DNA of 20,155 bases from positions 1 to 20,155 of the IMG/VR virus record IMGVR_UViG_3300042502_000678; one strand, written 5' to 3'. This document shows, piece after piece, positions 1 through 15,407 of this stretch. The stretch's first letter is position 1; every line of letters begins with the position of its first letter. A program made the translations under genes and the position numbers. Source of the DNA: a virus. The notes under the pieces are model-generated. The model saw only the letters and a list, made by a program, of their open reading frames with translations. It searched no databases and had not been told where the DNA came from.

Positions 1-40
1 CAGCCTCGAGAGTACTGTGTCCAACAGCCTCGAGAGTACT
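1..40 (+). repeat. Two direct copies of a 16-bp unit, period 24
   Basis: CAGCCTCGAGAGTACT occurs at 1-16 and again, identical, at 25-40. The 24-base period keeps the reading frame and encodes QPREY(C/Y) twice in the partial membrane protein. Further copies could lie upstream of the window. Confidence 0.8.
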
Positions 41-261
41 ACGCCAGGGATAACATAAAGACCATTCTCGGCAACGTAGTGGTCGCAACTATCTGCCTTA
101 GCTTGGCAGTTGTCAGCGTGTACCTAGCGATACATGTACCAGAGTACCCCTTCTTGATGTTCGGTTGTTTTACCAGCACCGGCATCTTCAGTTTCATATC
201 CGCACTACACATGCTATCCGCAAGAAAGGCTTATGACGACTATGAATCCACTCTTAACTGA
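1..261 (+). CDS. Small two-helix membrane protein, 5' end outside window
   Basis: The frame is open from base 1 and ends at TAA 259-261, so the 86 visible residues are probably the C-terminal part of a gene that starts before the window; an internal GTG at 79 would cut into the first membrane helix and is a poor start. The visible protein has a polar N-terminal part with QPREY twice (residues 1-5 and 9-13), then two hydrophobic segments at about residues 22-44 and 50-72, and a short charged tail ending YESTLN. This predicts a small integral membrane protein with both termini on the same side. The family is not recognised. The next gene overlaps its end, so it belongs to the same plus-strand operon. 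The role is unknown; phage small membrane proteins include holins, superinfection-exclusion proteins and takeover factors, but nothing here selects one. Confidence 0.6.
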   Translation, partial: QPREYCVQQPREYYARDNIKTILGNVVVATICLSLAVVSVYLAIHVPEYPFLMFGCFTSTGIFSFISALHMLSARKAYDDYESTLN

Positions 262-460
262 GGCCAGCACTCGTGAGTTGACTAAGCATGCAATTCTCAC
301 TCGAATTGAGACCCTTCTCAACCGCATTGATTTGGATAAGAAGTTCACACGCAAGCTTCCCAAACAACACGCCCGCATTCTCCGTGCCTGCAAGATAGCA
401 CGCCGAGATGGTGGTGTTATCACCCAAGGCATGTTTGCCGTCATAGCGAGGTATGCATAG
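233..460 (+). CDS. Small basic protein of unknown function
   Basis: A 75-residue protein that overlaps the end of the membrane-protein gene by 29 bases and whose TAG stop (458-460) shares one base with the GTG start of the nuclease gene. It is basic (RIETLLNRI, KKFTRKLPKQ, ACKIARRDGG) with predicted helices, and the order KQHARILRACKIARRDGGVI suggests a short helical nucleic-acid-binding or adaptor protein, but no family is recognised. Two starts are possible: ATG 233, with AAAGG only 3 bases upstream, or ATG 242, with the same AAAGG 12 bases upstream; neither spacing is ideal. Its tight coupling to the downstream nuclease suggests co-expression. The function is not known. Confidence 0.6.
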   Translation: MTTMNPLLTEASTRELTKHAILTRIETLLNRIDLDKKFTRKLPKQHARILRACKIARRDGGVITQGMFAVIARYA

Positions 461-1446
461 TGAGAAAACCAAACTACCTATCCTACTCTGCACTCAGCCT
501 ATTTGAGAGCGATCTTGACGAATACTGCCTAAGGTATCTTGTTGATGAGAGGCCTCCGCGTGAGACTCAGGGCGTACCTGCCGGGGTTGGCTCAGCGTTT
601 GACGCAAGAGTTAAATCAACCCTGTACGATTACTCCTATGGCAAAGGCTACAAGCCTGAGCTGTACAGCTATGAGGTCCTGTTTGAGAAACAAGTCGAAC
701 CACCAAATCGCGACGTCTGTGGACCAGCAGGCGACCATGTTTTTGCATGCTACAAGCTATCTGGTTTTCTTGACCGGATCAAAGCACTTGCTGCAAAGGT
801 GATTGAGCCACCACAGTATGAGTTCAGTGTCGAGAAGAACATCGGCGGCGTCCAGTTGTTGGGAAAACCAGACGGGCTACTTCGACTGCCTGACGTCAAT
901 GTTGTACTCGACTGGAAGGTTAATGGCTACTGTTCCAACACCACAGTGAGCCCCAACCAGGGCTACATACTATGTCGAGACGGGTATATTGCACTCAAGC
1001 AGTCAAAGTCACACGACACTGCCCACAAGAATGTAACGAACACCATCTACAGGGGCGTCACCATTGGTGGCCACTTGGAAGACTCAAGTGAACCCTGGGC
1101 CAGTCAGCTTGCGGGGTATGCTTGGTGCTTAGGTGAACCTGTTGGTTCAGAGAACGTTGTATTCATGATTCACCAGTGTGTCGCTAAGCCAATACCGGAG
1201 ACACGACCACTATTGAGGTTCGCAGAATTCTGTGGGCCTGTGAGAAAACCATATCAAGAGTTTCTACTCACGCGATATCAGAAATGCTGGGCTGCTATTC
1301 AGAACGAACACATCTTCCATGACCTCAGCCTCGAGGAGAGTAGGAAACGGTTCAACATGATGAATGCTCAGGCAAAAGCAATGGTTGCCGATGGTGGCGA
1401 CTCCATTTGGGTACAGCTTGTTCGGCCAACATGGCGAGGTAAATAA
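460..1446 (+). CDS. PD-(D/E)XK nuclease, RecB/Cas4-like
   Basis: A 328-residue protein with the hallmarks of the PD-(D/E)XK exonuclease superfamily (RecB C-terminal domain, Cas4, AddB type). The N-terminus has the usual YSALSLFE start followed by GVGSAFDA (about 42-49). The catalytic core is GKPDG with D138, then LDWKV with D151 and K153, and a downstream QLAGY gives the Q-x3-Y motif (Q216, Y220). E121 or E125 may supply the other metal ligand. Family knowledge predicts a metal-dependent DNA exonuclease acting in recombination, replication or end-processing; no helicase domain and no clear four-cysteine iron-sulphur cluster is visible. Start is GTG 460 with GAGG at 448-451. The stop overlaps the GNAT ATG (TAATG), so the nuclease, GNAT and methyltransferase are translationally coupled. 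Superfamily assignment is firm; exact role is inferred. Confidence 0.85.
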   Translation: MRKPNYLSYSALSLFESDLDEYCLRYLVDERPPRETQGVPAGVGSAFDARVKSTLYDYSYGKGYKPELYSYEVLFEKQVEPPNRDVCGPAGDHVFACYKLSGFLDRIKALAAKVIEPPQYEFSVEKNIGGVQLLGKPDGLLRLPDVNVVLDWKVNGYCSNTTVSPNQGYILCRDGYIALKQSKSHDTAHKNVTNTIYRGVTIGGHLEDSSEPWASQLAGYAWCLGEPVGSENVVFMIHQCVAKPIPETRPLLRFAEFCGPVRKPYQEFLLTRYQKCWAAIQNEHIFHDLSLEESRKRFNMMNAQAKAMVADGGDSIWVQLVRPTWRGK

Positions 1447-1976
1447 TGTCAGTGTATGCAACGTTTAGTACGGCTAGCAGGATGGATTTGGGTAAGCTTG
1501 AGCAAGCCGATGTTATGTGTTTTGATGACTGCTGGACCAAGGACCAGTGGGAGGAGATTGTCAAAGCAAACATGGTCAGGTTGGTTTACTCAAGCTTTGG
1601 CCTAGTGGGTTTCTGGTGTGCAAGGGTTAGCGAGCCAGATAATCCCGATGCAGTACACGATGTTGAGATAATCAAGATTGGTGTAATGCCAAAGCATAGG
1701 GGCCAAGGTTTGTCACGCGCAATCCTGAGGGACATTCGTAGTTGGTTACAGACAGACTTCGTTGACTCCTCTGAGTTCAAAGTAACGATGTTGGTGCCGG
1801 ACTGCCTACTGTTGCCCTCGTGGCCGTCATTTATTGGTAAGTGGTTAGGGCACGTTGGCTTCAAGGCCAATAAGGAGAACATGTTGGTGGAATTCCCACA
1901 TGCTTTCTATGGTGTCAAGTTCCAACATGCCGTCCGCTTCGACTTCCCACGGCTCCCCGGAGTCTATGGCCTATGA
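1446..1976 (+). CDS. GNAT-family acyltransferase
   Basis: A 176-residue protein of the GCN5-related N-acetyltransferase fold. Motif A is clear: a beta-strand VEIIKIGVMP (73-82) runs into KHRGQGLSRAIL, giving the acyl-CoA pyrophosphate-binding loop R-G-Q-G-L (R85-L89) and the following helix. A later GHVGFKA stretch fits the last part of the fold. GNAT enzymes transfer an acyl group from acyl-CoA to amines on proteins, small molecules or, in the Mom-like branch, modify DNA bases. Substrate cannot be read from sequence. SD GAGG lies at 1436-1439. The stop overlaps the methyltransferase start as ATGA (1973-1976), tying the two together, so a link to DNA modification is possible but is inference. 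Confidence 0.8.
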   Translation: MSVYATFSTASRMDLGKLEQADVMCFDDCWTKDQWEEIVKANMVRLVYSSFGLVGFWCARVSEPDNPDAVHDVEIIKIGVMPKHRGQGLSRAILRDIRSWLQTDFVDSSEFKVTMLVPDCLLLPSWPSFIGKWLGHVGFKANKENMLVEFPHAFYGVKFQHAVRFDFPRLPGVYGL

Positions 1977-2737
1977 CGCATTCCCTGTGGCATGGCGACA
2001 ACCTGGACTTCCTGGCAAGGGCTAACAACCGTCTCTGGAAGTGGGACATGATCTTCGCAGACCCACCTGACAACATTGGGTTGGGGTATGACGAGTGTAA
2101 AGACCACGTTCACAGTGATGACTACTACGAGCTATGCCGTCTATGGATAAACGCAGCAATGCGTGTAACGGACACTCTCTGGTGGTCATTCAATGCACGG
2201 CACACAACCGCGATGGGTCACATCCTTTATGAGGCAGCAAGAGGAGACAACTGGGCACCAGATTGGATGCAAGGTGTCTCCTGTAAACCCTGCGTTCAAA
2301 CGTTTACGTTTGGGCAGCACAACAAACATGACTTCGGCAACAACCACCGTCCTCTCTGGCGAATAACCAGAGGTACGCCACGAGTGTATCCAGGACAGAT
2401 CATGGTGCCCTCGTGGCGACAACTGAATGGGGACAAGCGAGCCAAGGAGGGTGGCCGCGTGCCCGGCGATGTTTTTGATTTCCCCCGAGTAACGGGGAAT
2501 AGCAAACAACGTCGTGCATGGCACCCGACACAGTTGCATGAAGCCTTAGTAGAGAGATGCATCCTTTCATCCACATGGGAGGATGGCACTGTACTCGATA
2601 TTTTCGGCGGGACAGGGACAACGCTCCGTGTCTGCAAACGAATCAAACGTAATTGCACGCTAGTTGAAATGTCATCCAACTACTGTGCAGAAATTTCCAA
2701 AGAGCATGACATCCAAATTGAAAGAGTAACACCATGA
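1973..2737 (+). CDS. Beta-class DNA methyltransferase (N6-adenine or N4-cytosine)
   Basis: A 254-residue amino-methyltransferase. Motif IV comes first (FADPPDN, residues 28-34), then a central variable region likely to include the target-recognition part, then HPTQ (184-187, motif X-like) and motif I LDIFGGTGTT (208-217), the AdoMet-binding loop, followed by NCTLVEMSSNY. The order IV...X-I is that of the beta class (PF01555-like), which methylates exocyclic amines of A or C. The usual DPPY aromatic is Asp here (DPPD), a deviation to note although the catalytic DPP is kept. No restriction endonuclease is adjacent, so it looks like an orphan phage methylase, perhaps shielding phage DNA from host restriction. 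Start overlaps the GNAT stop (ATGA) with GGAG at 1959-1962. Target sequence is unknown. Confidence 0.88.
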   Translation: MTHSLWHGDNLDFLARANNRLWKWDMIFADPPDNIGLGYDECKDHVHSDDYYELCRLWINAAMRVTDTLWWSFNARHTTAMGHILYEAARGDNWAPDWMQGVSCKPCVQTFTFGQHNKHDFGNNHRPLWRITRGTPRVYPGQIMVPSWRQLNGDKRAKEGGRVPGDVFDFPRVTGNSKQRRAWHPTQLHEALVERCILSSTWEDGTVLDIFGGTGTTLRVCKRIKRNCTLVEMSSNYCAEISKEHDIQIERVTP

Positions 2738-2991
2738 GCAACGCAACAATTGAAGCCCCAGTACCAACAGTCGAGTCCCCAGCAAAGTTTGCAGTCCGTG
2801 ATATCTTCGGGAGACCTATTTTCGAGGGGGACACAATCGTCTACGCAACCCGTAGGGGCTCCGATACCTTCCTCAACAAGTTGGTTGTCACGTTCGTTGG
2901 TGTTAACGCAATCAAAGGATGGACTCCTGAGGATGTGAACCGACGAACACGAACACTAACCAACTTCAAGACAGTGGCCAAGGTCGCATAA
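2734..2991 (+). CDS. Small conserved-looking phage protein, unknown function
   Basis: An 85-residue protein whose ATG overlaps the methyltransferase stop (ATGA, 2734-2737). After a Pro/Val-rich N-terminus it carries the pattern DIFGRPIFEGDTIVYATRRGSDTFL (about 23-47) and then a strand-rich segment LVVTFVGVNAIKG. This pattern, 'dxfGrpixeGDxivYatrxgs', recurs in small phage proteins of unknown role and suggests a compact beta-barrel (SH3/KOW-like) fold; that fold is inference. The last third is basic (NRRTRTLTNFKTVAKVA). Nothing in it marks catalysis. It ends the tightly coupled nuclease-GNAT-methylase run; a 33-base gap follows before the zinc-ribbon gene. Confidence 0.65.
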   Translation: MSNATIEAPVPTVESPAKFAVRDIFGRPIFEGDTIVYATRRGSDTFLNKLVVTFVGVNAIKGWTPEDVNRRTRTLTNFKTVAKVA

Positions 2992-3024
2992 AGAACTAAT
3001 CAATACTCAAACCGAGGTATATGA

Positions 3025-3237
3025 ATGCCAACCTATGAATACGAATGCCAAGAATGCGGACACACTCATGAGGAGGTCCGCACTATGGCTCAAGGTCCAC
3101 ATACAGAGTGTCAGCGTTGCGGTGCAGCGGTGAAACAGAAGTATGGCATACCAATTCTCCAAGTTGGGGGTTACTCCCCGGCACATCCACGAAAGCTACG
3201 AGGTCGACGAGGTGCTAAGCCTAAAGCAACTGGTTAA
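3025..3237 (+). CDS. FmdB-type zinc-ribbon protein
   Basis: A 70-residue protein that starts with the signature MPTYEYECQECG, followed by TECQRCG at about 28-34. The two CxxC knuckles (C8-x2-C11, C29-x2-C32) form a zinc ribbon as in the FmdB/CxxC-CxxC-SSSS family of putative regulatory proteins. The C-terminus is basic and glycine-rich (KLRGRRGAKPKATG). Family members are small putative regulators whose target is not established. The start at ATG 3025 has GAGG at 3014-3017, 7 bases upstream. Its 3' part overlaps the next gene out of frame, by 95 bases if that gene starts at 3143 or 26 bases if it starts at GTG 3212. Confidence 0.8.
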   Translation: MPTYEYECQECGHTHEEVRTMAQGPHTECQRCGAAVKQKYGIPILQVGGYSPAHPRKLRGRRGAKPKATG

Positions 3238-3835
3238 GAGCGGCTCAGTCAATGAGATTTACCTTGACCTCGATGACACACTCAACACCTTCACGGCTTC
3301 CGTGGGGGTGTTGTATGGGGTGGCGACTGATGACTTTGACTTGTCATGGTGCCAACACAAACATGGGTTCGACCTCATTGAACAGATCAAAGGAGCATAT
3401 GAGACCAGACGTACACACGCTTTGATTGGCGAGTTTGACTATGACTCGTTTTGGTGGCACCTACCACCCTCGCTTTGGTCATCTACACCTCAGTCAAAAC
3501 ACTGCGATGACTTGGTCGTCGCTTGTATGGATGCCGTTGGACCTGAGAACGTATTCATTGCAACCTCCCCGACGAAGAATCCAAACTCGGCTAGTGGGAA
3601 GATGCACTGGATCAACACTTACATCCACCCGCTGTTGAGACGCAACTATCAGATCACACCTCGCAAGGAGAAGCTATCGGCCCCAGGTCGGTTGCTCATT
3701 GATGACTGCCAACTTCATCTAGACAACTGGGTTGATCGCGGAGGTCTCACATTCACGGTCCCCAAACCGTGGAATCGAAACCACTACTATAACGGTGACG
3801 ACACCCGAGCAATCATGGAGTTCATTGGACGATGA
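3143..3835 (+). CDS. HAD-superfamily 5'(3')-nucleotidase-like phosphatase
   Basis: A protein of up to 230 residues with the HAD motif set: motif I IYLDLDDTLN (39-48, nucleophile D42 and acid/base D44), motif II FIATSP (138-143), a motif III lysine around K175/K177, and motif IV LLIDDCQ with D187-D188. The layout, with a cap region rich in aromatic residues between motifs I and II, resembles deoxyribonucleotidases that remove phosphate from (d)NMPs; phages use such enzymes in nucleotide-pool control. Substrate is inferred. The start is uncertain: ATG 3143 has weak SD and overlaps the zinc-ribbon gene by 95 bases, while GTG 3212 has GAGG at 3200-3203 and would give about 207 residues with all motifs intact. 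The stop overlaps the next ATG (ATGA). Confidence 0.8.
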   Translation: MAYQFSKLGVTPRHIHESYEVDEVLSLKQLVKSGSVNEIYLDLDDTLNTFTASVGVLYGVATDDFDLSWCQHKHGFDLIEQIKGAYETRRTHALIGEFDYDSFWWHLPPSLWSSTPQSKHCDDLVVACMDAVGPENVFIATSPTKNPNSASGKMHWINTYIHPLLRRNYQITPRKEKLSAPGRLLIDDCQLHLDNWVDRGGLTFTVPKPWNRNHYYNGDDTRAIMEFIGR

Positions 3836-4122
3836 CAATAATCGTAATCGCAATTGTGGTGGCCCTCGCAGCCATCGTGTTTGGGATCTTCTTCATCCCT
3901 GGTGTGGGCTCCGCGCTCGCCACTGGATTTGGCCTAGCATTCTTCCGGGTGCTGGGAGAGAACCGGCAGAAACGGATTGAGGCCAGACGGGGTCGATGGC
4001 GACGTGACAACCCCGCCCCAACTGTGACGCCCAAGGAGGAACCGGAGGGGGTACCGGCGGATACCCCCGCCGAGAGTCCACGTAGAATTCGCCTCCGTCG
4101 ATGGAGGTTTCGAAGTGAATGA
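3832..4122 (+). CDS. Small membrane protein with basic proline-rich tail
   Basis: A 96-residue protein coupled to the HAD gene by ATGA (3832-3835). Residues 2-22 are a strongly hydrophobic helix (TIIVIAIVVALAAIVFGIFF), followed by a Gly/Ala-rich weakly hydrophobic stretch to about 41, then a long basic tail (ENRQKRIEARRGRWRRD) and a Pro/Glu-rich segment ending RRIRLRRWRFRSE. An N-terminal anchor plus a cationic cytoplasmic-type tail is predicted. Such an outline is seen in some lysis accessory or host-membrane proteins, but no endolysin is in the window and no family is recognised. Its last bases overlap the next small gene. Confidence 0.6.
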   Translation: MTIIVIAIVVALAAIVFGIFFIPGVGSALATGFGLAFFRVLGENRQKRIEARRGRWRRDNPAPTVTPKEEPEGVPADTPAESPRRIRLRRWRFRSE

Positions 4123-4246
4123 TAACTTCCCGGAGTTGGAGATTGCTTTACAGGTTTGGCGTAATTGGGACCCCACTTACACCCCAGTTGTTGTGACCTT
4201 TGGGCTACTCATACTCCTTGCCTACCTATACAGGAAAGTCCTATGA
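4115..4246 (+). CDS. 43-residue single-helix membrane protein
   Basis: A very short gene starting at GTG 4115 with a strong Shine-Dalgarno GGAGG at 4103-4107, 7 bases upstream, and ending at TGA 4244-4246. It overlaps the previous stop by 8 bases and the next ATG by ATGA, the same coupling style as the rest of the cluster. The product has an acidic/aromatic N-terminal half (NDNFPELEIALQVWRNWDP) and one hydrophobic segment at about 24-38 (PVVVTFGLLILLAYLY) capped by RKVL, so a single-pass membrane protein is expected. No family is recognised. The SD and junctions are the main reasons to call it. Confidence 0.6.
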   Translation: MNDNFPELEIALQVWRNWDPTYTPVVVTFGLLILLAYLYRKVL

Positions 4247-4485
4247 TGAACCGCCAAGCCCGTGTGCCGGGCACGAGGACCTGGGTCAGCTTTGGGAATG
4301 TCACCTACATTGAGGCCGGGCGTAAGCTTGCCTCAATTTTACACGCAACCGCTGAGGGCCCATACACTCTGAACTCAACACAGCGGGTTGAGGTCAGAGA
4401 CGAATTTGATGGTCTCCCACCAGTTACATTCGTCTACCGGGTGGATGTCGTCGCGAGCTGTCTCAACCCCAGGTTGGGTAGTTGA
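4243..4485 (+). CDS. Small protein of unknown function, last gene before terminator
   Basis: An 80-residue protein starting at ATG 4243, with AGGA at 4232-4235. The open frame continues upstream to an ATG at 4165, but that start would lie deep inside the 43-residue gene and lacks the coupling seen elsewhere. The product looks like a small soluble beta-rich protein (TWVSFGNVTYIEAGRKLASIL, PVTFVYRVDVV). It is not recognised. The TGA at 4483-4485 is followed within 7 bases by an intrinsic terminator, so this gene closes the first plus-strand transcription block. Confidence 0.6.
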   Translation: MMNRQARVPGTRTWVSFGNVTYIEAGRKLASILHATAEGPYTLNSTQRVEVRDEFDGLPPVTFVYRVDVVASCLNPRLGS

Positions 4486-4491
4486 TATTTG

Positions 4492-4520
4492 GCCTCAGAG
4501 AAATCTGAGGCTTTTCTTTT
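4492..4520 (+). terminator. Intrinsic terminator with GAAA tetraloop
   Basis: GCCTCAGA (4492-4499), loop GAAA, TCTGAGGC (4504-4511) form a perfect 8-bp stem closed by a GNRA-type tetraloop and followed by TTTTCTTTT (4512-4520). It sits 7 bases after the stop of the preceding gene and 9 bases before a -35-like box. Confidence 0.92.
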
Positions 4521-4528
4521 AGTTTTGT

Positions 4529-4556
4529 TTGACTTCTAGTTTTCTTGGCACATACT
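4529..4556 (+). promoter_or_regulatory. Conserved phage promoter-like element, copy 1
   Basis: TTGACT (4529-4534), a 16-base spacer containing CTAGTTTTCTT, and CATACT (4551-4556). The spacer core and the CATACT box are identical in two other copies (5439-5466 plus, 15386-15359 minus). It lies straight after a terminator and points at the gene starting at 4564. The ATG is only 7 bases after the -10-like box, predicting a leaderless mRNA. Sigma-70-like spacing is somewhat short at 16, and the conserved spacer suggests an extra recognition factor; this last point is inference. Confidence 0.75.
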
Positions 4557-4563
4557 AGTAAAT

Positions 4564-4734
4564 ATGAAACTCACTGCACTACTTGCACTTATCGCTCTGA
4601 TAATTGGCTTCACAACAAGCCGCATGATAGGGCCACCCAAACCAAAACCGCCCAAGCCTAAAGCCCCGGATGACTTCGACGTACTACTGGATGAATATAT
4701 GATTTACGACCCTGACCTGGATGGAAAGATATGA
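4564..4734 (+). CDS. 56-residue anchored or secreted proline-rich protein
   Basis: A short gene, ATG 4564 to TGA 4732-4734, too small to stand out by length alone but supported by a promoter directly upstream and an ATGA junction with the next gene. The N-terminus MKLTALLALIALIIGFTTS is a signal or membrane-anchor sequence. It is followed by a proline-lysine spacer (PPKPKPPKPKAP, about 24-35) and an acidic tail (DDFDVLLDEYMIYDPDLDG). There is no lipobox cysteine, so it is not an evident lipoprotein. The layout resembles small anchored phage envelope proteins, including spanin-like proteins, but that is only a resemblance. No Shine-Dalgarno precedes the ATG, consistent with leaderless translation. 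Confidence 0.6.
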   Translation: MKLTALLALIALIIGFTTSRMIGPPKPKPPKPKAPDDFDVLLDEYMIYDPDLDGKI

Positions 4735-5045
4735 TTTATGTGAATGTGGAGTTTCAAACAGGGGGACCTGTTTTCCAATATAGGGCGTACCAGTTTGTGC
4801 GCCCAGGACACACGGTCTTAGTGCCAGTTGGCGACAGCATTGCTATAAGACAGGCCCGCGTAGTAAGTATTGGATTCAAGCGGTACTACTGGGGCACTAT
4901 CAAGGAGATCCACGGAGTGGTCCGTAAGGGTTGGTATCGCTGGCTGTTCCATGCAAAGCCACCCAAGGCCCCTAAACGAAAGAAGGCCATACCAACATGG
5001 CCAGAAGACTTTGACTATGCCGAACAAGATTGGGGTGACCGATGA
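4731..5045 (+). CDS. Small beta-rich basic protein, possibly PriA 3'BD-like fold
   Basis: A 104-residue protein coupled to its neighbours by ATGA at both ends (4731-4734 and 5042-5045). The first 65 residues are strand-rich: YVNVEFQTGGPVFQYRAY, then RPGHTVLVPVGDSIAIRQARVVSIG. The phrase 'GxxVxVPxGxxxxxxxxxVxxI' recalls the small N-terminal 3'-DNA-end-binding domain of PriA, which some phage proteins share; this is a weak resemblance, not an assignment. The C-terminal part is basic (KGWYRWLFHAKPPKAPKRKK) and ends in an acidic tail. Role unknown. Confidence 0.6.
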   Translation: MIYVNVEFQTGGPVFQYRAYQFVRPGHTVLVPVGDSIAIRQARVVSIGFKRYYWGTIKEIHGVVRKGWYRWLFHAKPPKAPKRKKAIPTWPEDFDYAEQDWGDR

Positions 5046-5419
5046 GCGAGAAACTATTTCCAGCTATAGACGATACCGAGAAGACTCATGGGGCAGCGTA
5101 TCAACGGGGCCTAGAGGACGGTGAAGGTGTCACTGGTATGCCAATGCTCCCAAGTCGACGTGCTGACCTCAGTGAGAAGATTCGACGAGATTCCGGGCTG
5201 TGCACGTCGATAGCACATGATGATCATATGAACGCACTCCGGGCAAAGTATATCATTGACACTTATATTGAGTGGGCCTTTGGTGAAACGCTGGGTGACT
5301 ATGAGATGCAGCTCACCACCCGAAGTGGCAATGAACCATGGCGGCGTGTCCATCGGGCACCCTATGATTTCGGTTGCTACTGTTACCGGCTGAAGAAGTA
5401 TGACGAGTTGGATGAGTAA
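5042..5419 (+). CDS. Unrecognised soluble protein, last gene before second terminator
   Basis: A 125-residue protein starting at ATG 5042 (ATGA with the previous stop). It is soluble, of mixed charge, without membrane segments: KTHGAAYQRGLEDGEG at 14-29, a central helical part LRAKYIIDTYIEWAFGETLGDYE (67-89) and a Tyr/Cys-rich end YDFGCYCYRLKKYDELDE. No family is recognised. Its TAA stop (5417-5419) is built into the left arm of the following terminator hairpin. Confidence 0.6.
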   Translation: MSEKLFPAIDDTEKTHGAAYQRGLEDGEGVTGMPMLPSRRADLSEKIRRDSGLCTSIAHDDHMNALRAKYIIDTYIEWAFGETLGDYEMQLTTRSGNEPWRRVHRAPYDFGCYCYRLKKYDELDE

Positions 5420-5440
5420 GAAATCTAGAAGATTTCTTTT
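5418..5440 (+). terminator. Intrinsic terminator merged with a stop codon and a -35 box
   Basis: AAGAAATCT (5418-5426), loop AGA, AGATTTCTT (5430-5438) form a 9-bp stem followed by TT. The left arm includes the last two bases of the upstream TAA, and the T tail runs into the TTGACA at 5439. The T tract is short, so termination may be partial. Confidence 0.7.
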
Positions 5441-5466
5441 GACAACTAGTTTTCTTGATGCATACT
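5439..5466 (+). promoter_or_regulatory. Conserved phage promoter-like element, copy 2
   Basis: TTGACA (5439-5444, a perfect sigma-70 -35 hexamer), 16-base spacer with the invariant CTAGTTTTCTT, and CATACT (5461-5466). Unlike the other two copies, the next start codon (5505) is 38 bases downstream of the -10-like box and has GGAG at 5492-5495, so this transcript would have a leader of about 30 bases. It opens the third plus-strand block. Confidence 0.78.
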
Positions 5467-5504
5467 TGTAGTATCACCAAGCCAGCCACCCGGAGACAAC
5501 CACC

Positions 5505-5771
5505 ATGCAACTTATCAGAAGGTATCACGAACATGAAGTAGATTACATCCCATGGCTCTCACAAGAGAACCGGCCATTGAATGAAAGACCATACGGCCCA
5601 GACTGGGTCGTACACAAACTCAGCTACGACGTTGAAGACAAGTCGTACTGGGCACAAGGCCTCAACCTTAACAACGATGAAGCCTTCTTTTGGAACCTCA
5701 GAGCAGATCGCCCAATGTCGTGGCGATACGACTTCACCAACACCAAGTACTTTCAAGGACAACATGACTAA
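5505..5771 (+). CDS. Small aromatic-rich protein, unknown function
   Basis: An 88-residue protein with GGAG at 5492-5495, 9 bases before the ATG; first gene after promoter copy 2. It is rich in Trp and Tyr (YIPWLSQENRP, GPDWVVHKLSYDVEDKSYW, FFWNLRADRPMSWRYDF) and has no membrane segment. The run VVHKLSYDVEDKSYWAQGL looks like a beta-hairpin-rich small domain. No family is recognised. The next gene overlaps its last 8 bases, so the two are likely translated together. Confidence 0.6.
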   Translation: MQLIRRYHEHEVDYIPWLSQENRPLNERPYGPDWVVHKLSYDVEDKSYWAQGLNLNNDEAFFWNLRADRPMSWRYDFTNTKYFQGQHD

Positions 5772-6117
5772 GAAAACTTCCTTTGCGTTCCTTATGCTGG
5801 CAGCAGCGGCTGTATTCCCAATTCAATCCCAGGCACAGACACAAACCTACTCTGTGCAGAAGTTTGGGGGTCAGACGATCCTCGTACCTCAAGGGGTTAT
5901 CAAGAGCGGCCCGCGATCCTATAGCGCATTCGACCCCTCAAATCCCTACCGTACTGCTAAGGACTACACCGGGCGAACCGGTTACGAGCGGGCAGCCTCA
6001 AGCCAACTGCCGGTAATCAACCGCAACGGAAACTGCCGTGTTGAGCCACGGGGCGTCACCGGTGGTGTGTACTTCGGTAATGGACCCGTGATCATCGTCA
6101 ACCCATTTGTCAAGTAA
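5764..6117 (+). CDS. Secreted protein with signal peptide
   Basis: A 117-residue protein starting at ATG 5764, which overlaps the previous stop; the frame is open further upstream, but that extension is a shadow of the preceding gene. The N-terminus is a clear Sec signal peptide: MTKK, a hydrophobic core FAFLMLAAAAVFP, and a probable signal peptidase I site after QAQA-type residues (SQA before QTQTY, about residue 24). The mature part is about 93 residues, Gly/Pro/Tyr-rich, with one Cys (NGNCRVEP) and a hydrophobic end GPVIIVNPFVK. A phage protein exported to the periplasm could act in host-envelope modification, superinfection exclusion or lysis, but no family is recognised. Confidence 0.7.
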   Translation: MTKKTSFAFLMLAAAAVFPIQSQAQTQTYSVQKFGGQTILVPQGVIKSGPRSYSAFDPSNPYRTAKDYTGRTGYERAASSQLPVINRNGNCRVEPRGVTGGVYFGNGPVIIVNPFVK

Positions 6118-6118
6118 A

Positions 6119-6481
6119 ATGATCACTAGTACACAGTGGGAACACATCAACGAGATCATGGACAACTTTGATTTCAGGCGTGTGGCCATCACAATGCGGT
6201 ACCTGAAATGGGGGTGGGGTATGGCGCCTAATACACACATCCCTGAGGAAAATGAGCTACGACAATACGTGCGGGCACGTATGGTTGAGATGCATCAACG
6301 AAATCTTACATACATGGACAGCGGTGGCTTCCGTGTTGAGAGGTCTGGGGATGCCTTTACTGTTTCTTTTGTTCTCACAGACTGGCAGACATATGACGAT
6401 AGCACTTGCACAGAAGGAAACGATGAACGGTCTCCTAAGCTTGTGGATGGCGAATGGAGTTCTAGGTTTACAACTAGCTGA
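6119..6481 (+). CDS. Unrecognised soluble protein
   Basis: A 120-residue protein taken from ATG 6119, two bases after the previous TAA; an in-frame TTG at 6107 is less likely. No convincing Shine-Dalgarno is seen, so the start may depend on translational coupling. It has an N-terminal helical part (QWEHINEIMDNFDFRRVAITMRYLKWGW) and a charged middle (EENELRQYVRARMVEMHQRNL), then a strand pattern GGFRVERSGDAFTVSFVL. This alternation suggests a small alpha/beta domain. No family is recognised. The end overlaps the next gene by 59 bases. Confidence 0.6.
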   Translation: MITSTQWEHINEIMDNFDFRRVAITMRYLKWGWGMAPNTHIPEENELRQYVRARMVEMHQRNLTYMDSGGFRVERSGDAFTVSFVLTDWQTYDDSTCTEGNDERSPKLVDGEWSSRFTTS

Positions 6482-6680
6482 GTGTCGAGCTATTGGTAAG
6501 GACCAGTTTGTACTCCGTCCACAACCAACACTCTTGGGATCGCTGCCCAAGTATTACAAGTTCGACTATGAACTGTTTGAGCGAGATTGGATGCGAATCA
6601 TGAGTCGTGAGTTGAATGCAACCGTGCATCCACTCCAGGGCACCATGCATGGGTACATCATCGTGGAGAGGACACTATGA
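6423..6680 (+). CDS. Unrecognised small protein
   Basis: An 85-residue protein taken from ATG 6423, preceded by AAGGA at 6414-6418. The frame is open back to 6252, but that part overlaps the preceding gene almost completely and reads as its shadow. The product starts MNGLLSLWMANGVLGLQL, moderately hydrophobic, and continues with FVLRPQPTLLGSLPKYYKFDYELFERDW and an end IIVERTL. No family is recognised. Its TGA overlaps the following ATG (ATGA, 6677-6680). The start is the least certain part of this call: ATG 6447 is an alternative that would reduce the overlap. Confidence 0.5.
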   Translation: MNGLLSLWMANGVLGLQLAECRAIGKDQFVLRPQPTLLGSLPKYYKFDYELFERDWMRIMSRELNATVHPLQGTMHGYIIVERTL

Positions 6681-6892
6681 GCAAAATTCAAGACGGCGAC
6701 TGGAAGAAACACTGGCACGAAGTAGATATCAAGATCTTGGAAAAGCGTGCCGAGATCGCTGACCTCATCGATGCCAGGAATGCTCGTCAAGGTGAGATGG
6801 AAAAGCAGTGTGTCAAAGACCATGGGAAGCACAAGGACGATGGCGGGTTTTTGTATGGCACATGCATACGATGCGGAGCACAACTTGGCTAG
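6677..6892 (+). CDS. Small coiled-coil protein with C-terminal zinc-binding-like motif
   Basis: A 71-residue protein coupled by ATGA to the previous gene. Residues about 10-42 are a charged amphipathic helix (VDIKILEKRAEIADLIDARNARQGEMEKQ), followed by CVKDHGKHKDDGG and GTCIRCGAQLG. C45, H49 and the CxxC at about 62-65 could bind zinc as a small knuckle. Function is unknown; such helix-plus-knuckle proteins are frequent in phage accessory regions. It ends at TAG 6890-6892, after which the same frame stays open for 18 more mostly hydrophobic codons. Confidence 0.6.
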   Translation: MSKIQDGDWKKHWHEVDIKILEKRAEIADLIDARNARQGEMEKQCVKDHGKHKDDGGFLYGTCIRCGAQLG

Positions 6893-6949
6893 GCGATCAT
6901 ATTGGGTGTAGCCGGACTCCTGCTTTCAACAAATTACTATGAAAGTTAA

Positions 6950-7216
6950 ATGATGAGATACAAACTTGAACTCAATGAACACCAACAAGCAATGTCACCT
7001 GACGAGGTCACCCAGTTAAAGATCGAGCTACAGCAACTGCTGAACCGACACCGCGTGGAGAATAACTCCAACACGCCAGACAGCATCTTGGCGGAATACA
7101 TGTACGCTTGCTTGGCGGCATTCGAGAAGGGCGTCAAGAGAAGAGACGCATGGTATGGGCTAGCACCCGAGCCGGGAAACTCCAAACGAACTGCGGAGGA
7201 GGCTGCGGACCTATAA
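6950..7216 (+). CDS. Small phage protein of the 'NTPDxILAEY' type
   Basis: An 88-residue protein with the segment NSNTPDSILAEYMYACLAAFEKGVKRRDAWYG (about 39-70). The pattern 'N-T-P-D-x-I/V-L-A-E-Y ... C-L-x-A-F ... R-x-x-W-Y-G' recurs in many small proteins of tailed phages and is well conserved although without known function; this is recalled from knowledge of phage proteins, not searched. The N-terminal part is a helix rich in Gln/Glu (QLKIELQQLLNRH). Start is ATG 6950, with a second ATG at 6953. The TAA stop overlaps the next ATG (TAATG, 7214-7218). Confidence 0.72.
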   Translation: MMRYKLELNEHQQAMSPDEVTQLKIELQQLLNRHRVENNSNTPDSILAEYMYACLAAFEKGVKRRDAWYGLAPEPGNSKRTAEEAADL

Positions 7217-7443
7217 TGGTCAAACTAACTTACTGCAAAGAAAAGCAGGACTACTTCGTCGACGACTGGTTGGTCGCTGCTGTGCTAGGGACCAAGGCAC
7301 TGCTGCAAAAGAAGGATGGCAAGAAGATGTTGGTTGCGACACTTGAGGGTGGGCGAACCACCGAGCAAAAGATTGGTGCCAAGGTCACTCTTGGGACGTC
7401 AAAGCTAGTTGCCAGCTCAAGGGGGTGGGTATTTGATGACTAA
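7216..7443 (+). CDS. Small beta-rich protein, last plus-strand gene
   Basis: A 75-residue protein from ATG 7216, which shares a base with the preceding TAA; the upstream open frame to 7108 lies inside the previous gene and is dismissed. It is basic and strand-rich (LTYCKEKQDYFVDDWLVAAVLGTKALLQKKDGKKMLVATLEGG, KIGAKVTLGTSKLVASSRGWVFDD). No family is recognised. Its TAA is part of the long terminator stem that closes the whole plus-strand block. Confidence 0.6.
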   Translation: MVKLTYCKEKQDYFVDDWLVAAVLGTKALLQKKDGKKMLVATLEGGRTTEQKIGAKVTLGTSKLVASSRGWVFDD

Positions 7444-7488
7444 ACGAAAAAAGCCCCGTGGTTTTAATCACGGGGCTTTTTTCGTTTT
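7442..7488. terminator. Bidirectional terminator between convergent blocks
   Basis: A perfect 19-bp stem pairs 7442-7460 with 7469-7487 around the loop GTTTTAAT. The GC core GCCCCGTG/CACGGGGC is flanked by A6 on the left and T6 on the right, so an RNA from either strand would form a hairpin followed by a U run. It separates the plus-strand genes ending at 7443 from the minus-strand genes ending at 7564. Confidence 0.95.
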
Positions 7489-7524
7489 GGGATCGGGCAA
7501 TAGACACACCAAAACATATAAATT

Positions 7525-7553
7525 GCACTGTAACCTACAGTGTGTTACGGTGC
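7525..7553. other. Imperfect inverted repeat with two competing hairpins
   Basis: GCACTGTAAC (7525-7534) can pair with GTTACGGTGC (7544-7553) with one G-T pair, while CACTGTA (7526-7532) pairs perfectly with TACAGTG (7536-7542). There is no T run, so it is not an obvious terminator. It could be a back-up RNA 3'-end structure for the minus-strand transcript or a protein-binding site; function is unknown. Confidence 0.35.
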
Positions 7554-7563
7554 CATATTTACG

Positions 7564-8088
7564 TTATGATAGATTGCCCACGAGTCTGTATACCTTGCAT
7601 GGTGACAAGTCGGTGAAGTAGGCCTTGTGAACACCAACGCCATAGACTTTAAGCCTCTTGCGACACAGGCGAGTGAACTCAGTTTGGATCGTTGCCTTGC
7701 AACCTTTGAGTTGCTCCATAGTCTTACCAGTAATGATCTCAACGATTGCAGACCGTGCTACGTCGTCCAATGTCGTAGCAACGTCCCAGTTGAGGCCGCC
7801 ATAAGCAAGCAGCATATCATTGATCGTGAACACTACTGACCCTGCGACAACAACAGACTTGTCGTCTTGTGTCGTAAGGACTTGACTTGGCAAACTCATC
7901 GTCTGCCTTGCCACAGGGACAACCTCAACCTGCGTGATGAGGGGCCAGTAGGCATGGAGCCCAGGCTTCATCACGATGGCCTTCTTGCCTCGACGGAACT
8001 TGACCCCTCCATGCGTGGTTCGGATTATCACAAGCCTCGGGATGATCCCCAGGATTGCTTGCAGAAACTGTCCCAATATATCTAGCAT
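7564..8088 (-). CDS. SPFH/Band-7 (stomatin-prohibitin-like) membrane protein
   Basis: A 174-residue minus-strand protein. Residues 4-22 (ILGQFLQAILGIIPRLVII) form an N-terminal membrane helix. What follows matches the SPFH start pattern: GGVKFRRGKKAIVMKPGLHAYWPLITQVEVVPVARQTMSLPSQVLTTQDDKSVVVAGSVVFTI fragments (about 27-89), that is, the 'V..G.h.~.P....v..v..r...l....~T.D...v.v...v.y.i' signature, then a helix (DDVARSAIVEIITG) and a C-terminal strand YGVGVHKAYFTDL. SPFH proteins form membrane-bound rings or scaffolds and modulate membrane proteases and ion channels. The family's long C-terminal coiled coil is missing, so this is a minimal version. It is the last gene of the minus-strand block. 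Why a phage carries it is unclear; control of host membrane proteolysis is an inference. Confidence 0.8.
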   Translation of the reverse strand: MLDILGQFLQAILGIIPRLVIIRTTHGGVKFRRGKKAIVMKPGLHAYWPLITQVEVVPVARQTMSLPSQVLTTQDDKSVVVAGSVVFTINDMLLAYGGLNWDVATTLDDVARSAIVEIITGKTMEQLKGCKATIQTEFTRLCRKRLKVYGVGVHKAYFTDLSPCKVYRLVGNLS

Positions 8089-8118
8089 ATTTTTTTCCCA
8101 TTAGGGTTAGAGGTTTGA

Positions 8119-8676
8119 TTACCAGCGACCTAAAGGACAGTTCTCGGTCGCCATCGAGATTTTATTCCCGAGCGGGTGGCCTGTTGGGGCAACCGCGCAT
8201 CCGCAGGACTTGCAAGACTTCGTCTCCGCGTCGAACCGTTCACACTTGGAGCAGTGGTCGTTGAAAATGGCCTCGACCTCAGCTTGGGAGCGTCTTGGTC
8301 TGCCCTTCTGTATCCATACCTTGATCGCATCGACGTAGGCGAGCGCCTTGGTACCAAAGTCAGCACTTGTCGCCTCGGCCAGCGATTCTCCCACACAGCG
8401 GTCGCATTGCTCAGGCGTCACGCCAAGGCCCGTTACCTTGCATGTCCCCGCCGTCCTCAGGGAGCAGGCCCGGAACCCATCCTGGATCACCGGGAGTTGC
8501 ACCACCGGAGACAGCTTGTCATTGCAGCCCTTCTTGGCCAACAGCATCCGCACAGGGCAGGCCCCACAGTCGGGCTCCTGCACAATGCTCAGATACTTTT
8601 CAGCTTGCCTGTTGATGCAGCGGAACTGTGGAATACCATCCACACGTTCTCGCTGCCTCTTTATGCAATCTTCCAT
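8119..8676 (-). CDS. Cysteine-rich putative zinc-binding protein
   Basis: A 185-residue protein with 15 cysteines in paired clusters: C37-x2-C40, C91-x2-C94, and a dense C-terminal group C142-x2-C145, C155-x2-C158-x-C160, C180. The C-terminus has the pattern CSKCERFD-x5-CKSCGC ... NKISMATENCPLGRW; a similar 'CxxC...CGC...NKI.MAT..CP.G.W' ending is seen in phage and bacterial proteins of unknown role. Several zinc knuckles or an iron-sulphur centre are possible. The middle is helical (ALAYVDAIKVWIQKGRPRRSQAEVEAIF). The ATG at 8676 is one base after the stop of the tail tip gene, so it is co-translated with structural genes and may be a virion or tail assembly factor. The Cys pattern is direct evidence; function is unknown. 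Confidence 0.7.
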   Translation of the reverse strand: MEDCIKRQRERVDGIPQFRCINRQAEKYLSIVQEPDCGACPVRMLLAKKGCNDKLSPVVQLPVIQDGFRACSLRTAGTCKVTGLGVTPEQCDRCVGESLAEATSADFGTKALAYVDAIKVWIQKGRPRRSQAEVEAIFNDHCSKCERFDAETKSCKSCGCAVAPTGHPLGNKISMATENCPLGRW

Positions 8677-8677
8677 A

Positions 8678-11600
8678 TTAAACCTTCGCGGAACTTTCAG
8701 TTAGGTGTTTGATCAAACTGTCATTACCATTCGGGCTGTGAAACCCAACTTGAGAGTTATTCTTTTCTTTCTGCTCAGGGCAGCTCAGCTTGCTCTGGGC
8801 TACAGGGCTGACGAAGTAAAGACCCCACTTGTTTCGGATCTGTTTACACTGCATCGCTGCGGCCTCGGCTGCTTTGCTTGCTCTAAATGACTCTGCGGCC
8901 TGTCGGTTAGAGAAAACGTGGCAAGCGCTATCTACAGTTGCAGAGCATGCAAAACCAGGAACATTATCTACAGATTCGCACGGGCCCGTATCACAGCCCG
9001 GTCGGATCAAGTCAGGTAACACATAAGTAACTGTGACAGTGAAGCTACACCCGGTCGAATCTGGGATAGTACAGTCATCAAGAGGATCTTTACGCTTTCT
9101 ACCACCCGCATCGCCAACCCCGCCACCGGAGGACTCTTGTGGGTTGCGAGGCACAAAGAAATCAACTGGTGGAGGAGACTTGCTGTCAAGATCATTCGCA
9201 AAATTGCTAAAAGCTTGGGTCTCGAATGGGCGGAATATTGGCTCAATATCCGCAGAGAACTCGGACCCTGTTGCAATTAATTGAGCACAGGGAGATGCTG
9301 GGTATGTGTCATCAAGATCCGATGGATTTCTGTCACCATCTGTTGGTAACCTCAAGGCACTTAAGTCAAAACCTTGACGTAGTGGGTGGCCCACAGGTGG
9401 GCGGACAACCTTCTTAAGACCATCCCCGTTGTCCTTATAGTCAGGCCCTGGAAACAATCCCACAGCAGGCAGCAAGGCAGGCCATGCCCAAACATAAGGA
9501 GAGTTCGTACCTGCTAGTATTGGGGTCCAACACCTGAACTTGATTGTGTTCGAATCAAAGTTCACATTGAGACTCTCAATGACGCACTTGGTTGCCGGGA
9601 AGCCGGGGTGCGATACCGTGATACAATCGTACACGTCAAGGTCAAGGTGCTTTATCGGCGTCTCGAACTCGACATACTTCCACGAGTTTGCATCTCGGAT
9701 CATCCAGAACGTAGCAGACTTCTCAATTGTCTTGAAGGTGTTCTGTGTGAAGTAATCCTTCTCAGTTGTGTTAGTGCCGAAGCGACCAACGTTGTGCTTT
9801 AGTGTGAACTTCTCTTCCACATCCTGGTTCGCATAGATCTTGGCTTCAGTAGCTTGCCAACTGATTATATGCTTTGTGAATATGTCTTCTGTGGGGGTTG
9901 TGCTAACAGAAAACGATGACCGAAGTATTTCACTCGCGGTTATTGACCTAATGCTAGTAGGTTCCTTGGATAGGTAAGTTAAGTAAACAACGCCTGCACG
10001 AATTGTCACAGCACATCGGAACTGGTACGCGATCTCTTTGATCAGCTCAAAAACGCTCTGACGATCTCGAACAACGAAGCTTGCAGGGTAGTTTGCCAAC
10101 GAGGCCTCAACAGAACCAAAACTGGCCACATCATATGTGTACTCAGTATAGGTATCAATTAAGTACTTTATAATGTTCACCGGGTTGGGCCCAAAGTTTG
10201 ACTCAAAAGACACATACACATCATCGTCCCATTTCTCATCGGGGATATCACTAAGCTTGCGGTCGAACTGCAACTCAGCGACTTGGTAGTCACCATAGTT
10301 AGTCAGGTTCACTTCGTACTCAGCAGGATCAACCTCTGTTAATATCTTTGAGTCACCGAATGTTCTATAAGCAGCAACTTGTGTCACCACACCGGGTACA
10401 AGACTAACAATGTGGGTTATCTTAGAAGAGGACTCCAGGAACACATCCGTTCCAGATGGCAACCAAATGAACCGGCCTGCTTTGAATGTCTCGAAGTACT
10501 TCCATGAAGCCCCTGGTCCAACTATAACCTCAGCCACCTCAGTCTTCTCTTTACAACCCGCAACTGTCGTAGGCAATTCAAAGGGTGAAGCTACGCCACG
10601 AATCTCATAGCGTTGGCCAATATTTTTGCAAGCTGGGTTTGTGATCTCAAGAGAGTCTGGGTGCGTGACGCCACGGATATTGAAAGTGGTGCCAGACATA
10701 ACCCCCGTGTACCGCACATCTCCAATCCGCAGTGTGATGACCGTGCCTTGGGGAAACTTCTCACCACCGATGATTTGTACTGAGGTCTTGACATAAGGAG
10801 TCTGCTGTGCAATCTCAGTTAAGATCGCGCACACTTGACTCTGTCGGGCTTCGACGCATTCCTGGTAAATTTTACGGGATCTATCTGCAACCTCATTTAT
10901 CTTGTTTTGGTATTCGTTAATGAGGTTAATCTCAGCTTGGCCCTCCGACACGCAGCCTGGGATTGGTTGAAATGCTGTATTCTGAACATTTGGGTTGGCT
11001 ACACGCTTCAAACAGAAGAACAGAGCTAACGCTTCGTCAGTGCTGTTACCAAAAGCGAAGCCAACACGTTGGCCCGAGGCCGCGCTGGGTTGGATGTGGA
11101 CAATACCTTTTCGAGCAGCAGCGTACTTTGCACGAAACGCTTCCAAAGCGGCATCCCTAGCTCTTTCTAGCTCATTGATTTCCTTCTGTGCTTCTGGCGA
11201 TATAACCGCCGGGCACTGAAGCTTTTGTGCTTGGCATAGTCGCTCTTGCAGTGTAGGGTCAATAGCACCAAGAGGCTCCCCTAGAACTCCTTTGAACAAT
11301 GGCTTAAGTGGGAGCGTCGCCACATTACAAACATCACCGAAAATAAGGGGCCACTGAAGGCCACGTTGATCCTCAGGTATGTTGGGGAAGTCTCCGTCAT
11401 CCATGGAGAAACCCGTCTCAGCATCGGCTGTCTTGCTGATGACAGTTATCGTTAGTGTCTTGCTCAGATCATTGTAAACAATAGGTGAGTGGATTACGCC
11501 TTCCATCAACAAGGCACGTTCGGAGAAAGGTACGCCTTGGAAACTAAGCGAGAATCGGACCTTACCAAGGCTAATGTCATTAGCGTCAATTAAGGTCTTA

Positions 11601-12231: not shown

Positions 12232-12234
12232 CTT

Positions 12235-14010: not shown

Positions 14011-14027
14011 TATAATCCGATCACACT

Positions 14028-14459: not shown

Positions 14460-14470
14460 TATGACTCCTT

Positions 14471-14498
14471 AAAAAGAAAGCCCCGCAGATACAGGGCT
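14471..14498 (-). terminator. Intrinsic terminator after the broken homing endonuclease gene
   Basis: Read on the minus strand, AGCCC (14498-14494) pairs with GGGCT (14483-14479) around a 10-base loop, followed by TTTCTTTTT (14478-14470). The stem is only 5 bp, so strength is uncertain. It ends just before the SD of the gene starting at 14459. Confidence 0.65.
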
Positions 14499-14518: not shown

Positions 14519-15351
14519 CTAAGGGGTAGTTTTCTTAAGGTAACCCCAGTTGTCGGGGTCGGTTTTTTGATTTCGTAGAATGCGTTCTCGTATTGTATCG
14601 TTAAGAACGCCATGATCCTCAGCAGCGTCTTTGATGCAAGCATAAACCCAACCATCAACTAGGACGGGCTTAGCCATGCCGGAACTTGCACCTCGGGCGT
14701 AAGTGTCAGGTGATCGGTTTAGGTGGCTTGCGCCTATCTTGTCCTTGTGGCCCTGCGTAAACTCCCGGCCTAGCATTGCTTTACGCTTCTTCTTGCATGA
14801 GGCCTGGGTGTGTATGCGACCACGGTTTGCATTACCAATCTTGTCCTTAGTCTCCTGAGACAGGACCGCACCTAAGCGTCTCTGTTTACCCAAGGCCGAC
14901 GCACTCATCTTCTTTATTGTGTCTTTAGAGAACGTGCGGCCTGTTTGCGCAGCACTCATCTTGACCAATGTCTCTGGGGTATGTTTGCGACCCAACCAAA
15001 CCCGTCGCTTCTTCTCTCGTGTTTGGGGGCTATCCACATACCCTACAGAACCCTCACCACCAAGGGTCAAGTTGTAGCCGTTAGGTTTAACTGAGTTGTG
15101 CTTGGATATCTCTTTAATCTCACGAGAGAGAGAGCAGCACTATATGTTTTGTGCTTTGACACCAGGGAGTATTCAAAGTTTACTAAACCATACTTTTGTA
15201 TGGCCCGCCACAGCAGTAAAGACCCGTTACCACTCTCGTGGTCTCGCTTACGCTTCTTTGGCTGAGTTGAGATACCAACATACGCCTTACCGTTCACCAA
15301 GTTGGTGAAACGGTAAACATAGGTTGTCTGATTGTTTGCGGGTCTGGTCAT
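14519..15351 (-). pseudogene. GIY-YIG homing endonuclease split by a CT-repeat frameshift
   Basis: The N-terminal piece (15351 to about 15067) has the GIY-YIG half-motifs TYVYRFTNLVNGKAYVGIS, the Arg/His region and KYGLVNFEYSL. It then runs into junk (SLVRLKRYP) and stops. The next frame, from the CT run on, reads REIKEISKHNSVKPNGYNLTLGGEG, i.e. the missing catalytic Glu region and the NGYNLTxGG motif, then four or so NUMOD3 modules (LGRKHTPETLVKMSAA, GRTFSKDTIKKMSA, VLSQETKDKIGN, LGREFTQGHKDKIG) and a C-terminal NUMOD1/IENR-like DNA-binding helix-turn-helix (KPVLVDGWVYACIKDAAEDHG). Removing one CT from the run at 15134-15124 restores a single frame. It is a free-standing homing endonuclease gene of which the N-terminal fragment lacks its catalytic Glu. 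Without a correction it is inactive; a sequencing error cannot be excluded. Confidence 0.8.
15124..15134. repeat. GA/CT dinucleotide run (5.5 units) at the frameshift point
   Basis: GAGAGAGAGAG on the plus strand (CT run on the coding strand) lies exactly where the two endonuclease frames have to be joined. Loss of one 2-base unit would fuse them; this is the type of site where slipped-strand events occur. Confidence 0.85.
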
Positions 15352-15358
15352 AAACTCA

Positions 15359-15386
15359 AGTATGCATTAAGAAAACTAGAAGTCAA
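15359..15386 (-). promoter_or_regulatory. Conserved phage promoter-like element, copy 3
   Basis: On the minus strand: TTGACT (15386-15381), a 16-base spacer with the invariant CTAGTTTTCTT, CATACT (15364-15359). It matches copies 1 and 2 in both boxes, spacer length and spacer core. As in copy 1, the ATG follows 7 bases after the -10-like box (15351), predicting a leaderless mRNA for the GIY-YIG gene. Confidence 0.78.
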
Positions 15387-15407
15387 AGAAAACTTTACAG
15401 TTTTCTT
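15385..15407 (-). terminator. Intrinsic terminator merged with a stop codon and a -35 box
   Basis: AAGAAAACT (15407-15399), loop GTAA, AGTTTTCTT (15394-15386) form a 9-bp stem on the minus strand. The left arm begins inside the TAA of the upstream virion gene (15408-15406), and the right arm ends in the first T of the TTGACT of promoter copy 3. The stem is AT-rich and the T tract short, so termination is probably incomplete. Confidence 0.7.

Follow-up and report, generated by a model that had tools for sequence, protein, structure and literature searches.

A repeated stem-loop/promoter cassette in a tailed phage genome, in one copy ahead of a putatively acquired homing endonuclease gene

The promoter-early stem-loops (PeSLs) of T4-type phages, reportedly described by Arbiol in 2010 and by Comeau in 2014, are the natural starting point for the locus described here. 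Two other arrangements are also pertinent. Morons are autonomous single-gene phage units, with a promoter and a terminator of their own, that lie inside an operon of other function. In MerR-type spacer operators, a spacer of 19–20 bp contains a palindrome. According to the accessible part of PMC4503421, PeSLs mediate gene shuffling between T4-like phages; they are cited as well in the available part of PMC5931544, which reports that a search for promoters of mob and seg genes in its T4-like phage gave none. The promoters of phage sigma factors, as the available text of PMC4331800 sets them out, are typically well conserved and few, and are located toward the downstream end of the functional cluster and in the structural cluster.

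The window analyzed here is a virus record of 20,155 bp, and positions are window coordinates unless another record is named. Judged by its sequence, it contains a real repeated stem-loop/promoter cassette, one copy of which clearly precedes what would be an acquired unit (copy 3 and a homing endonuclease gene, HEG 1; Table 1). As in a PeSL, a stem-loop is followed directly by a promoter in an intergenic position (although the stem-loop is weak in copies 2 and 3), and the arrangement is repeated within one genome, with three copies in the window and in the larger contig G001, between genes of variable content. The analogy is not exact, because the genome is not that of a T4-type myovirus, there are three copies only, the promoter spacer has an invariant core, and two of the copies abut a start codon. 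Since the genome is not T4-type, we say that the cassette works like a PeSL and not that it is one; as such, it would extend stem-loop/promoter cassettes beyond the T4-type phages. In contrast to the mob and seg genes of the T4-like phage, as described in the available part of PMC5931544, HEG 1 has its own predicted promoter. The moron is similar in that a gene has its own promoter and terminator, but here the signal is a repeated, near-identical cassette. The cassette is not named in the literature covered, which concerned PeSLs, phage sigma factors, conserved spacers, GIY-YIG/leaderless genes, free-standing endonucleases and morons, with subscription papers mostly outside this coverage.

Table 1. 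Positions of the cassette elements and of the genes around them (window coordinates)
Feature	Position	Strand	Basis
Copy 1 stem-loop, GC-rich, 9-bp stem, GAAA loop, T-rich tail	4491..4512	+	Terminator scan; -15.0 kcal/mol
Copy 1 putative promoter box, TTGACTTCTAGTTTTCTTGGCACATACT	4529..4556	+	Sequence and box scan
Three overlapping small genes between copies 1 and 2 (4564-4734, 4731-5045, 5042-5419)	4564..5419	+	Open reading frames
Copy 2 stem-loop, AT-rich, 9 bp, begins inside TAA of 5042-5419	5418..5438	+	-6.4 kcal/mol
Copy 2 putative promoter box, TTGACAACTAGTTTTCTTGATGCATACT	5439..5466	+	Sequence and box scan
First gene after copy 2; ATG 38 nt past the box, with GGAG	5505..5771	+	Open reading frame
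Terminator-like hairpin past the end of HEG 1, ahead of AAGGAG and the next gene	14479..14498	-	Terminator scan
HEG 1, free-standing GIY-YIG/NUMOD3 homing endonuclease gene; ATG 7 nt after CATACT	14519..15351	-	Domain match
Copy 3 putative promoter box, TTGACTTCTAGTTTTCTTAATGCATACT	15359..15386	-	Sequence and box scan
Copy 3 stem-loop, AT-rich, 9 bp, begins inside TAA of gene 15406-15936	15386..15407	-	-7.8 kcal/mol

The boxes and the stem-loops before them

The 28-bp box, TTGAC-N2-CTAGTTTTCTT-N4-CATACT, is present in three exact copies, and all three agree letter for letter with an earlier note on this DNA, which had placed three copies with an identical 11-base core at these coordinates and on these strands. 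With up to 3 mismatches allowed, the window has three matches and 100 dinucleotide shuffles have none, which rules out a chance origin. The 11-mer CTAGTTTTCTT occurs without mismatch exactly three times in the window, in each case inside a box. The hexamers are laid out as TTGACW-N16-CATACT, within the 16–18 bp between -35 and -10 that is typical of sigma-70 promoters, and CATACT agrees with TATAAT at four of six positions. A generic consensus scan of positions 1-20000 found 17 sigma-70-like sites against 17.4 expected, a measure by which the three boxes are ordinary; because the number of such sites is at expectation, the evidence is the repetition of the box and not its match to the consensus. 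The boxes are best read as promoters of the form TTGAC-N17-CATACT.

Homology continues upstream of the box (52 nt at 81% for copies 2 and 3, 47 nt at 79% for copies 1 and 3). Downstream of CATACT, the copies are at background, with 4 to 6 of 15 positions in common. Inside the box, all four positions of the N4 block, and none of the remaining 24, distinguish copy 1 from copy 3, which rules out recent duplication without constraint as the sole cause. Across the three copies, 11 of 17 spacer positions are invariant; at each of the adjoining four, copies 1 and 3 carry different bases. The variable columns number 6 of 28 and fall in two runs, with a p value of 0.0034 if columns are exchangeable, which is weak, as the test was devised post hoc and there are three copies only. 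Because mismatches are confined to these columns, constraint on the spacer is plausible, and the invariant core is probably under some constraint. The arrangement does not have the form of a MerR-type operator, with 16 bp between the hexamers and a core that is not palindromic. The cassette would offer a compact example of a promoter spacer whose sequence is constrained, with a phage sigma-like protein as its potential reader. When intergenic windows of G001 were compared pairwise, 140 pairs had at least 20 of 28 identities, versus 5 after shuffling; the best-ranked pair arises artificially where two loci overlap, an unrelated repeat (rep2) comes second, and the cassette pairs follow.

The stem-loops are less uniform than the boxes. 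The view that each box directly follows an intrinsic terminator holds for copy 1, whose hairpin, by its stability, GAAA loop and T-rich tail, is likely to be the intrinsic terminator of the upstream genes. It does not hold for copies 2 and 3, whose hairpins are absent from the list given by the terminator scan of the window and, with their short T-runs, are weak terminators at best. A near-identical hairpin sequence without a promoter occurs at G001:1610-1630, again beginning in a TAA stop (shuffle mean 0.0, n = 100); alone, it folds weakly, at -2.1 kcal/mol.

In two of the three copies, the ATG lies exactly 7 nt past CATACT (ATG 4564 in copy 1, ATG 15351 in copy 3), a geometry that would suit leaderless mRNA. 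Neither start has a Shine-Dalgarno motif. Among the 28 listed genes, 14 have GGAG, GAGG or AAGG within 20 nt of the start, and the missing motif at copies 1 and 3 adds little because 12 of the 26 other genes are also without one. The three small genes behind copy 1 have no Pfam match at E 0.01, and further small genes lie downstream of copy 2. The genes of copies 1 and 2 have no match in 62 loci of relatives; the case for insertion set out below concerns copy 3.

Copy 3, HEG 1 and related genomes

The 62 loci of relatives comprise 44 of 48 tail-protein loci, L014, L015 and fetched regions, and in 32 of them, several being near-duplicates, gene 15406-15936 has a homologue extending as far as the C terminus. 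The 60 nt past the stop of this homologue fold at -10 kcal/mol or below in 31 of the 32. A site of the form TTGAC-N16..18-NANNNT was found in none of the 32 within the next 120 nt, where the best box match was 12 of 22, and HEG 1 has no tblastn match at E 0.001 in the 62 loci. Because the 32 loci are without such a site and HEG 1 is unmatched, the stem-loop, promoter and HEG 1 would most simply have been inserted together between the conserved gene and an older terminator-like hairpin. Copy 3 heads HEG 1, which has its own terminator-like hairpin at 14498-14479, and the proposal that the cassette also provides a promoter for the structural genes is therefore rejected.

A frameshift near a CT repeat (15060-15140, minus strand) divides HEG 1 into 15351-15067 and 15070-14519; G001 and G002 do not differ from the window there. 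We also considered the upstream regions of other GIY-YIG genes, taking 28 of 38 non-self loci, one of them without a start, which leaves 27. A promoter-like site is present in 6 of the 27, a count made without a null; the one in L100 lies 6 nt before the ATG, and the best match to the box, a CATACT site agreeing at 14 of 22 positions, is in L103. A distant blastn comparison of the copy 3 region with phages gave a best E of 0.06.

The boxes are carried by near-identical records only. G001 (44,830 bp) is identical to the window over 1-19055 and has the same three boxes, and G002 (10,994 bp) holds copy 3. The exact and slightly relaxed patterns matched viral contigs in G001 and G002 only, and the relaxed pattern, the only one used on genome contigs, gave 0 matches there. 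The earlier note had given the absence of further copies in the full genome as one half of what would count against its reading, and none appeared in the larger G001, a linear and possibly incomplete contig: no other site has at least 17 of the 22 fixed positions, the best having 16. Its structural genes begin at the contig end, and neither G001 nor G003 (0 of 2 records) has a terminase by PF03237 or phrog_2; copies beyond the ends of G001 could thus be missed. Because G003 also gave none, the terminase models may simply fail in this group. In the end regions of G001, 25 of 27 picked genes were scanned. Its matches include tape-measure proteins and a P22-type coat protein, with no T4 hallmark among them. 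Phage records gave no match by megablast of the window or by tblastn of the tail protein. Tail-protein relatives were confirmed in 0 of 80 stretches of genome contigs, and the capsid-protein matches, which are at ~30% identity and in many cases in actinobacterial phages, do not point to one host.

How the cassette may be read

Promoters with similar hexamers occur in some relatives. Sites of the form TTGAC-N17-NATACT number five in G029 and five in G020, against 0.05 and 0.15 expected, and the NATAAT version in the same search gave 0 and 1. Counts of the NATACT and NATAAT forms are 3 and 0 in G001, 2 and 2 in G032, and 2 and 0 in G030, with none in G003 and G026 (G026, G030 and G032 are partial). 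To judge by the counts in G029 and G020, the hexamers and their spacing are those of a principal-sigma type of promoter that some members of this phage group have. A TG one base before the -10 is a sigma-70 hallmark; it is present in 3 of 5 sites in G029 and 3 of 5 in G020, and the window boxes are without it. The relatives' sets thus resemble the cassette in the -35, the spacing, ATACT and, often, an AA or TT after TTGAC (all five spacers in G029, 5 of 8 in G020), but differ from it in having TG in 6 of 10 sites and no invariant 11-bp core. The best spacer pair in G029, and likewise in G020, shares 12 of 17 positions, versus 12, 13 and 14 for the G001 pairs; because these values are nearly equal, what sets the cassette apart is its continuous 11-bp core and not overall similarity. 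Across 44 loci (L022-L065), mostly of structural genes, promoters of this class are about as frequent as expected by chance. Two smaller features of the G029 and G020 sets (L079, L081-L083) may be recorded: many of their TTGAC-N17-TATACT promoters are followed by a TTAAATAG-like sequence, and at -10 position 5, C is far commoner than A.

We lean toward the reading in which a stem-loop/promoter cassette of ~50 bp, acting much as a PeSL or moron unit does, restarts transcription before accessory genes of a tailed phage, and find it somewhat probable. The RNA polymerase that recognizes the box would most likely be that of the host, as holoenzyme with the principal sigma factor; at copies 1 and 3, transcription would start at or beside the ATG and yield leaderless mRNA, and at copy 2 it would start some 30 nt before the ATG. 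The hairpin would dampen read-through from upstream, and the cassette could serve as a short homology for the swapping of modules. In favor of this reading are the non-chance occurrence of the box, the homology that extends into the hairpin, the canonical spacing of the hexamers, the 7-nt distance to the ATG, the apparent insertion of copy 3 with HEG 1, the TTGAC-N17-NATACT sites of G029 and G020, and the recurrence of the hairpin at G001:1610-1630. Against it are the lack of TG, the 4 of 6 agreement of CATACT, the weakness of the copy 2 and copy 3 hairpins as terminators, the chance-level frequency of the promoter class in L022-L065, and the invariant spacer core, which an ordinary host promoter does not require.

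Several alternatives address that core. First, the boxes, spacer core included, may form a phage-specific class, middle or late promoters read by a phage sigma-70-like protein with or without a phage co-factor, which we regard as possible though doubtful. A potential reader is encoded at G001:35044-35565 (L017:1045-1566, minus strand), in a replication cluster of G001 and ~1.7 kb outside the left edge of the window. This 173-aa sigma-70-like protein is a probable divergent sigma factor. It aligns to 158 of 165 positions of TIGR02937, nearly the full length (E 3.7e-6, 26.7 bits against a curated cut-off of 42.9), to the PHROG 1740 sigma factor (E 0.0023), and to Pfam Sigma70_r4 (E 0.0027, under the curated cut-off of 24.1). 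A profile of the protein and seven relatives' proteins (13–18% identity) matched solved sigma factors from E 6.5e-13 down, although an unrelated repeat protein ranks first and much of the signal comes from the relatives. In the structural model (mean pLDDT 64; 55 in a first single-sequence fold), the C-terminal domain is well predicted, and its fold appears to be like that of sigma region 4, which provides the best structural neighbors of the last 70 residues (Z 8.3 and 8.2), with unrelated helix-turn-helix (HTH) proteins scoring close behind. Foldseek returned nothing under E 0.001; its top rows, not significant, are ECF sigma factors. By tblastn the protein has no match, and related loci for it and for the polymerase were found in G001 only. 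Among 32 family records, 17 match TIGR02937 at E 0.01 and two, G003 and G029, pass the cut-off; since weak matches also occur in 14 of 14 control genomes, archaea included, such matches mean little. One near relative, G003 (tail protein at 45%), encodes a sigma factor that is clear, at 74.8 bits and above the cut-off.

The comparison with phages 7-11 and phiEco32 argues in the same direction. As far as the available text of PMC4331800 goes, these phages have few, well-conserved promoter copies, functional and structural clusters, and a sigma-like protein, and the cassette is comparably positioned, with copies 1 and 2 toward the downstream end of the functional cluster and copy 3 in the structural cluster. 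The motif given there for phiEco32 (TAATGTATA) and the 7-11 core TGATGT are, however, single short elements, unlike the two sigma-70-like hexamers and spacer core seen here. The clustered variation described above also favors a phage-specific class. Weighing on the other side, TTGAC and a -10 at N17 resemble a principal-sigma promoter, some relatives' TTGAC-N17-NATACT promoters have no invariant core, these promoters are missing from G003, the record with the strongest sigma-factor match, and no fourth copy exists within the contig G001. The earlier note's proposal of a phage-encoded activator or sigma-like reader receives partial support, in that a sigma-70-like protein, which may or may not read the boxes, is encoded and spacer constraint is plausible. 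Its class-specific phage promoter survives as a repeated, low-copy, well-conserved promoter, and loses its role in the structural block.

Second, in a related version that we consider unlikely, the promoter would have three parts, the -35, the 11-bp core and the -10, with the spacer read by a reduced sigma-like protein or a partner, for a leaderless, class-specific switch-on of the accessory genes and the homing endonuclease. Third, the core may be an operator, bound between the -35 and -10 by a phage repressor or regulator that silences the accessory units at some stage. A protein on the core would, by its position, keep RNA polymerase off the promoter; a second occurrence of AGTTTTCTT lies 17-18 bp upstream (unaltered in copy 3, with a single substitution in copy 1 and another in copy 2); and G001 encodes a protein with a ParB-type HTH over the cut-off (E 4.7e-5). 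We nevertheless find this improbable: the core is no palindrome, the repeats are not spaced by whole helical turns, no integrase is among the matches, and the lone repressor-like match is a weak one inside an exonuclease protein (phrog_35, E 0.0021). Finally, an RNA-level switch, in which the 5' arm of the hairpin would pair in read-through transcripts either with the opposite arm or with the core of the spacer, seems very improbable, because although such pairing gives copy 3 a 52-nt fold of -13.3 kcal/mol (z -3.6; 0 of 200 shuffles as good) and is slightly favored in the 50-nt fold of copy 2, shuffled sequences equal the latter fold in stability (z -0.7; 47 of 200 as good) and the core of copy 1 is unpaired with its hairpin.

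A second homing endonuclease gene and other features

A second GIY-YIG/NUMOD3 homing endonuclease gene, HEG 2 (gene 19437-20060, minus strand; window 19450-20052), is absent from G001 and G002, which provide the natural empty site. The window shows 12 differences common to its comparisons with G001 and with G002, at 19252-19447 on the tape-measure side of the insertion; the last ones may be alignment edge. Despite these differences, the tape-measure protein is unchanged past its first residues (160 codons compared). On the other side of HEG 2, 103 bases are comparable, with no difference beyond the edge. The differences look like co-conversion by homing. Further, HEG 2 seems to have captured for itself the ribosome-binding site and start codon (ATG) of the G001 tape-measure gene (20048-20075) and to bring a new GGAGGAGAC and GTG for that gene (19450-19470). 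Homing endonucleases in one phage population may therefore secure expression in two ways, through a private promoter (HEG 1) or through a taken-over ribosome-binding site (HEG 2).

Other features of the genome may be noted. A repeat around GGTGTAGCCGGACTCCTGCTTT, with 26 of 28 bases alike, occurs at 6904-6925 in the window and near 33,526 in G001, and may code for short membrane peptides; a position upstream of a tRNA was not supported by ARAGORN in L012. A long two-sided hairpin at 7435-7494, with 29-nt arms that are 86% complementary, lies between converging gene clusters and is probably a bidirectional terminator. In G001, genes for tRNA-Trp and tRNA-Phe are located at L016:8165-8238 and at L017:4895-4970 (minus strand).
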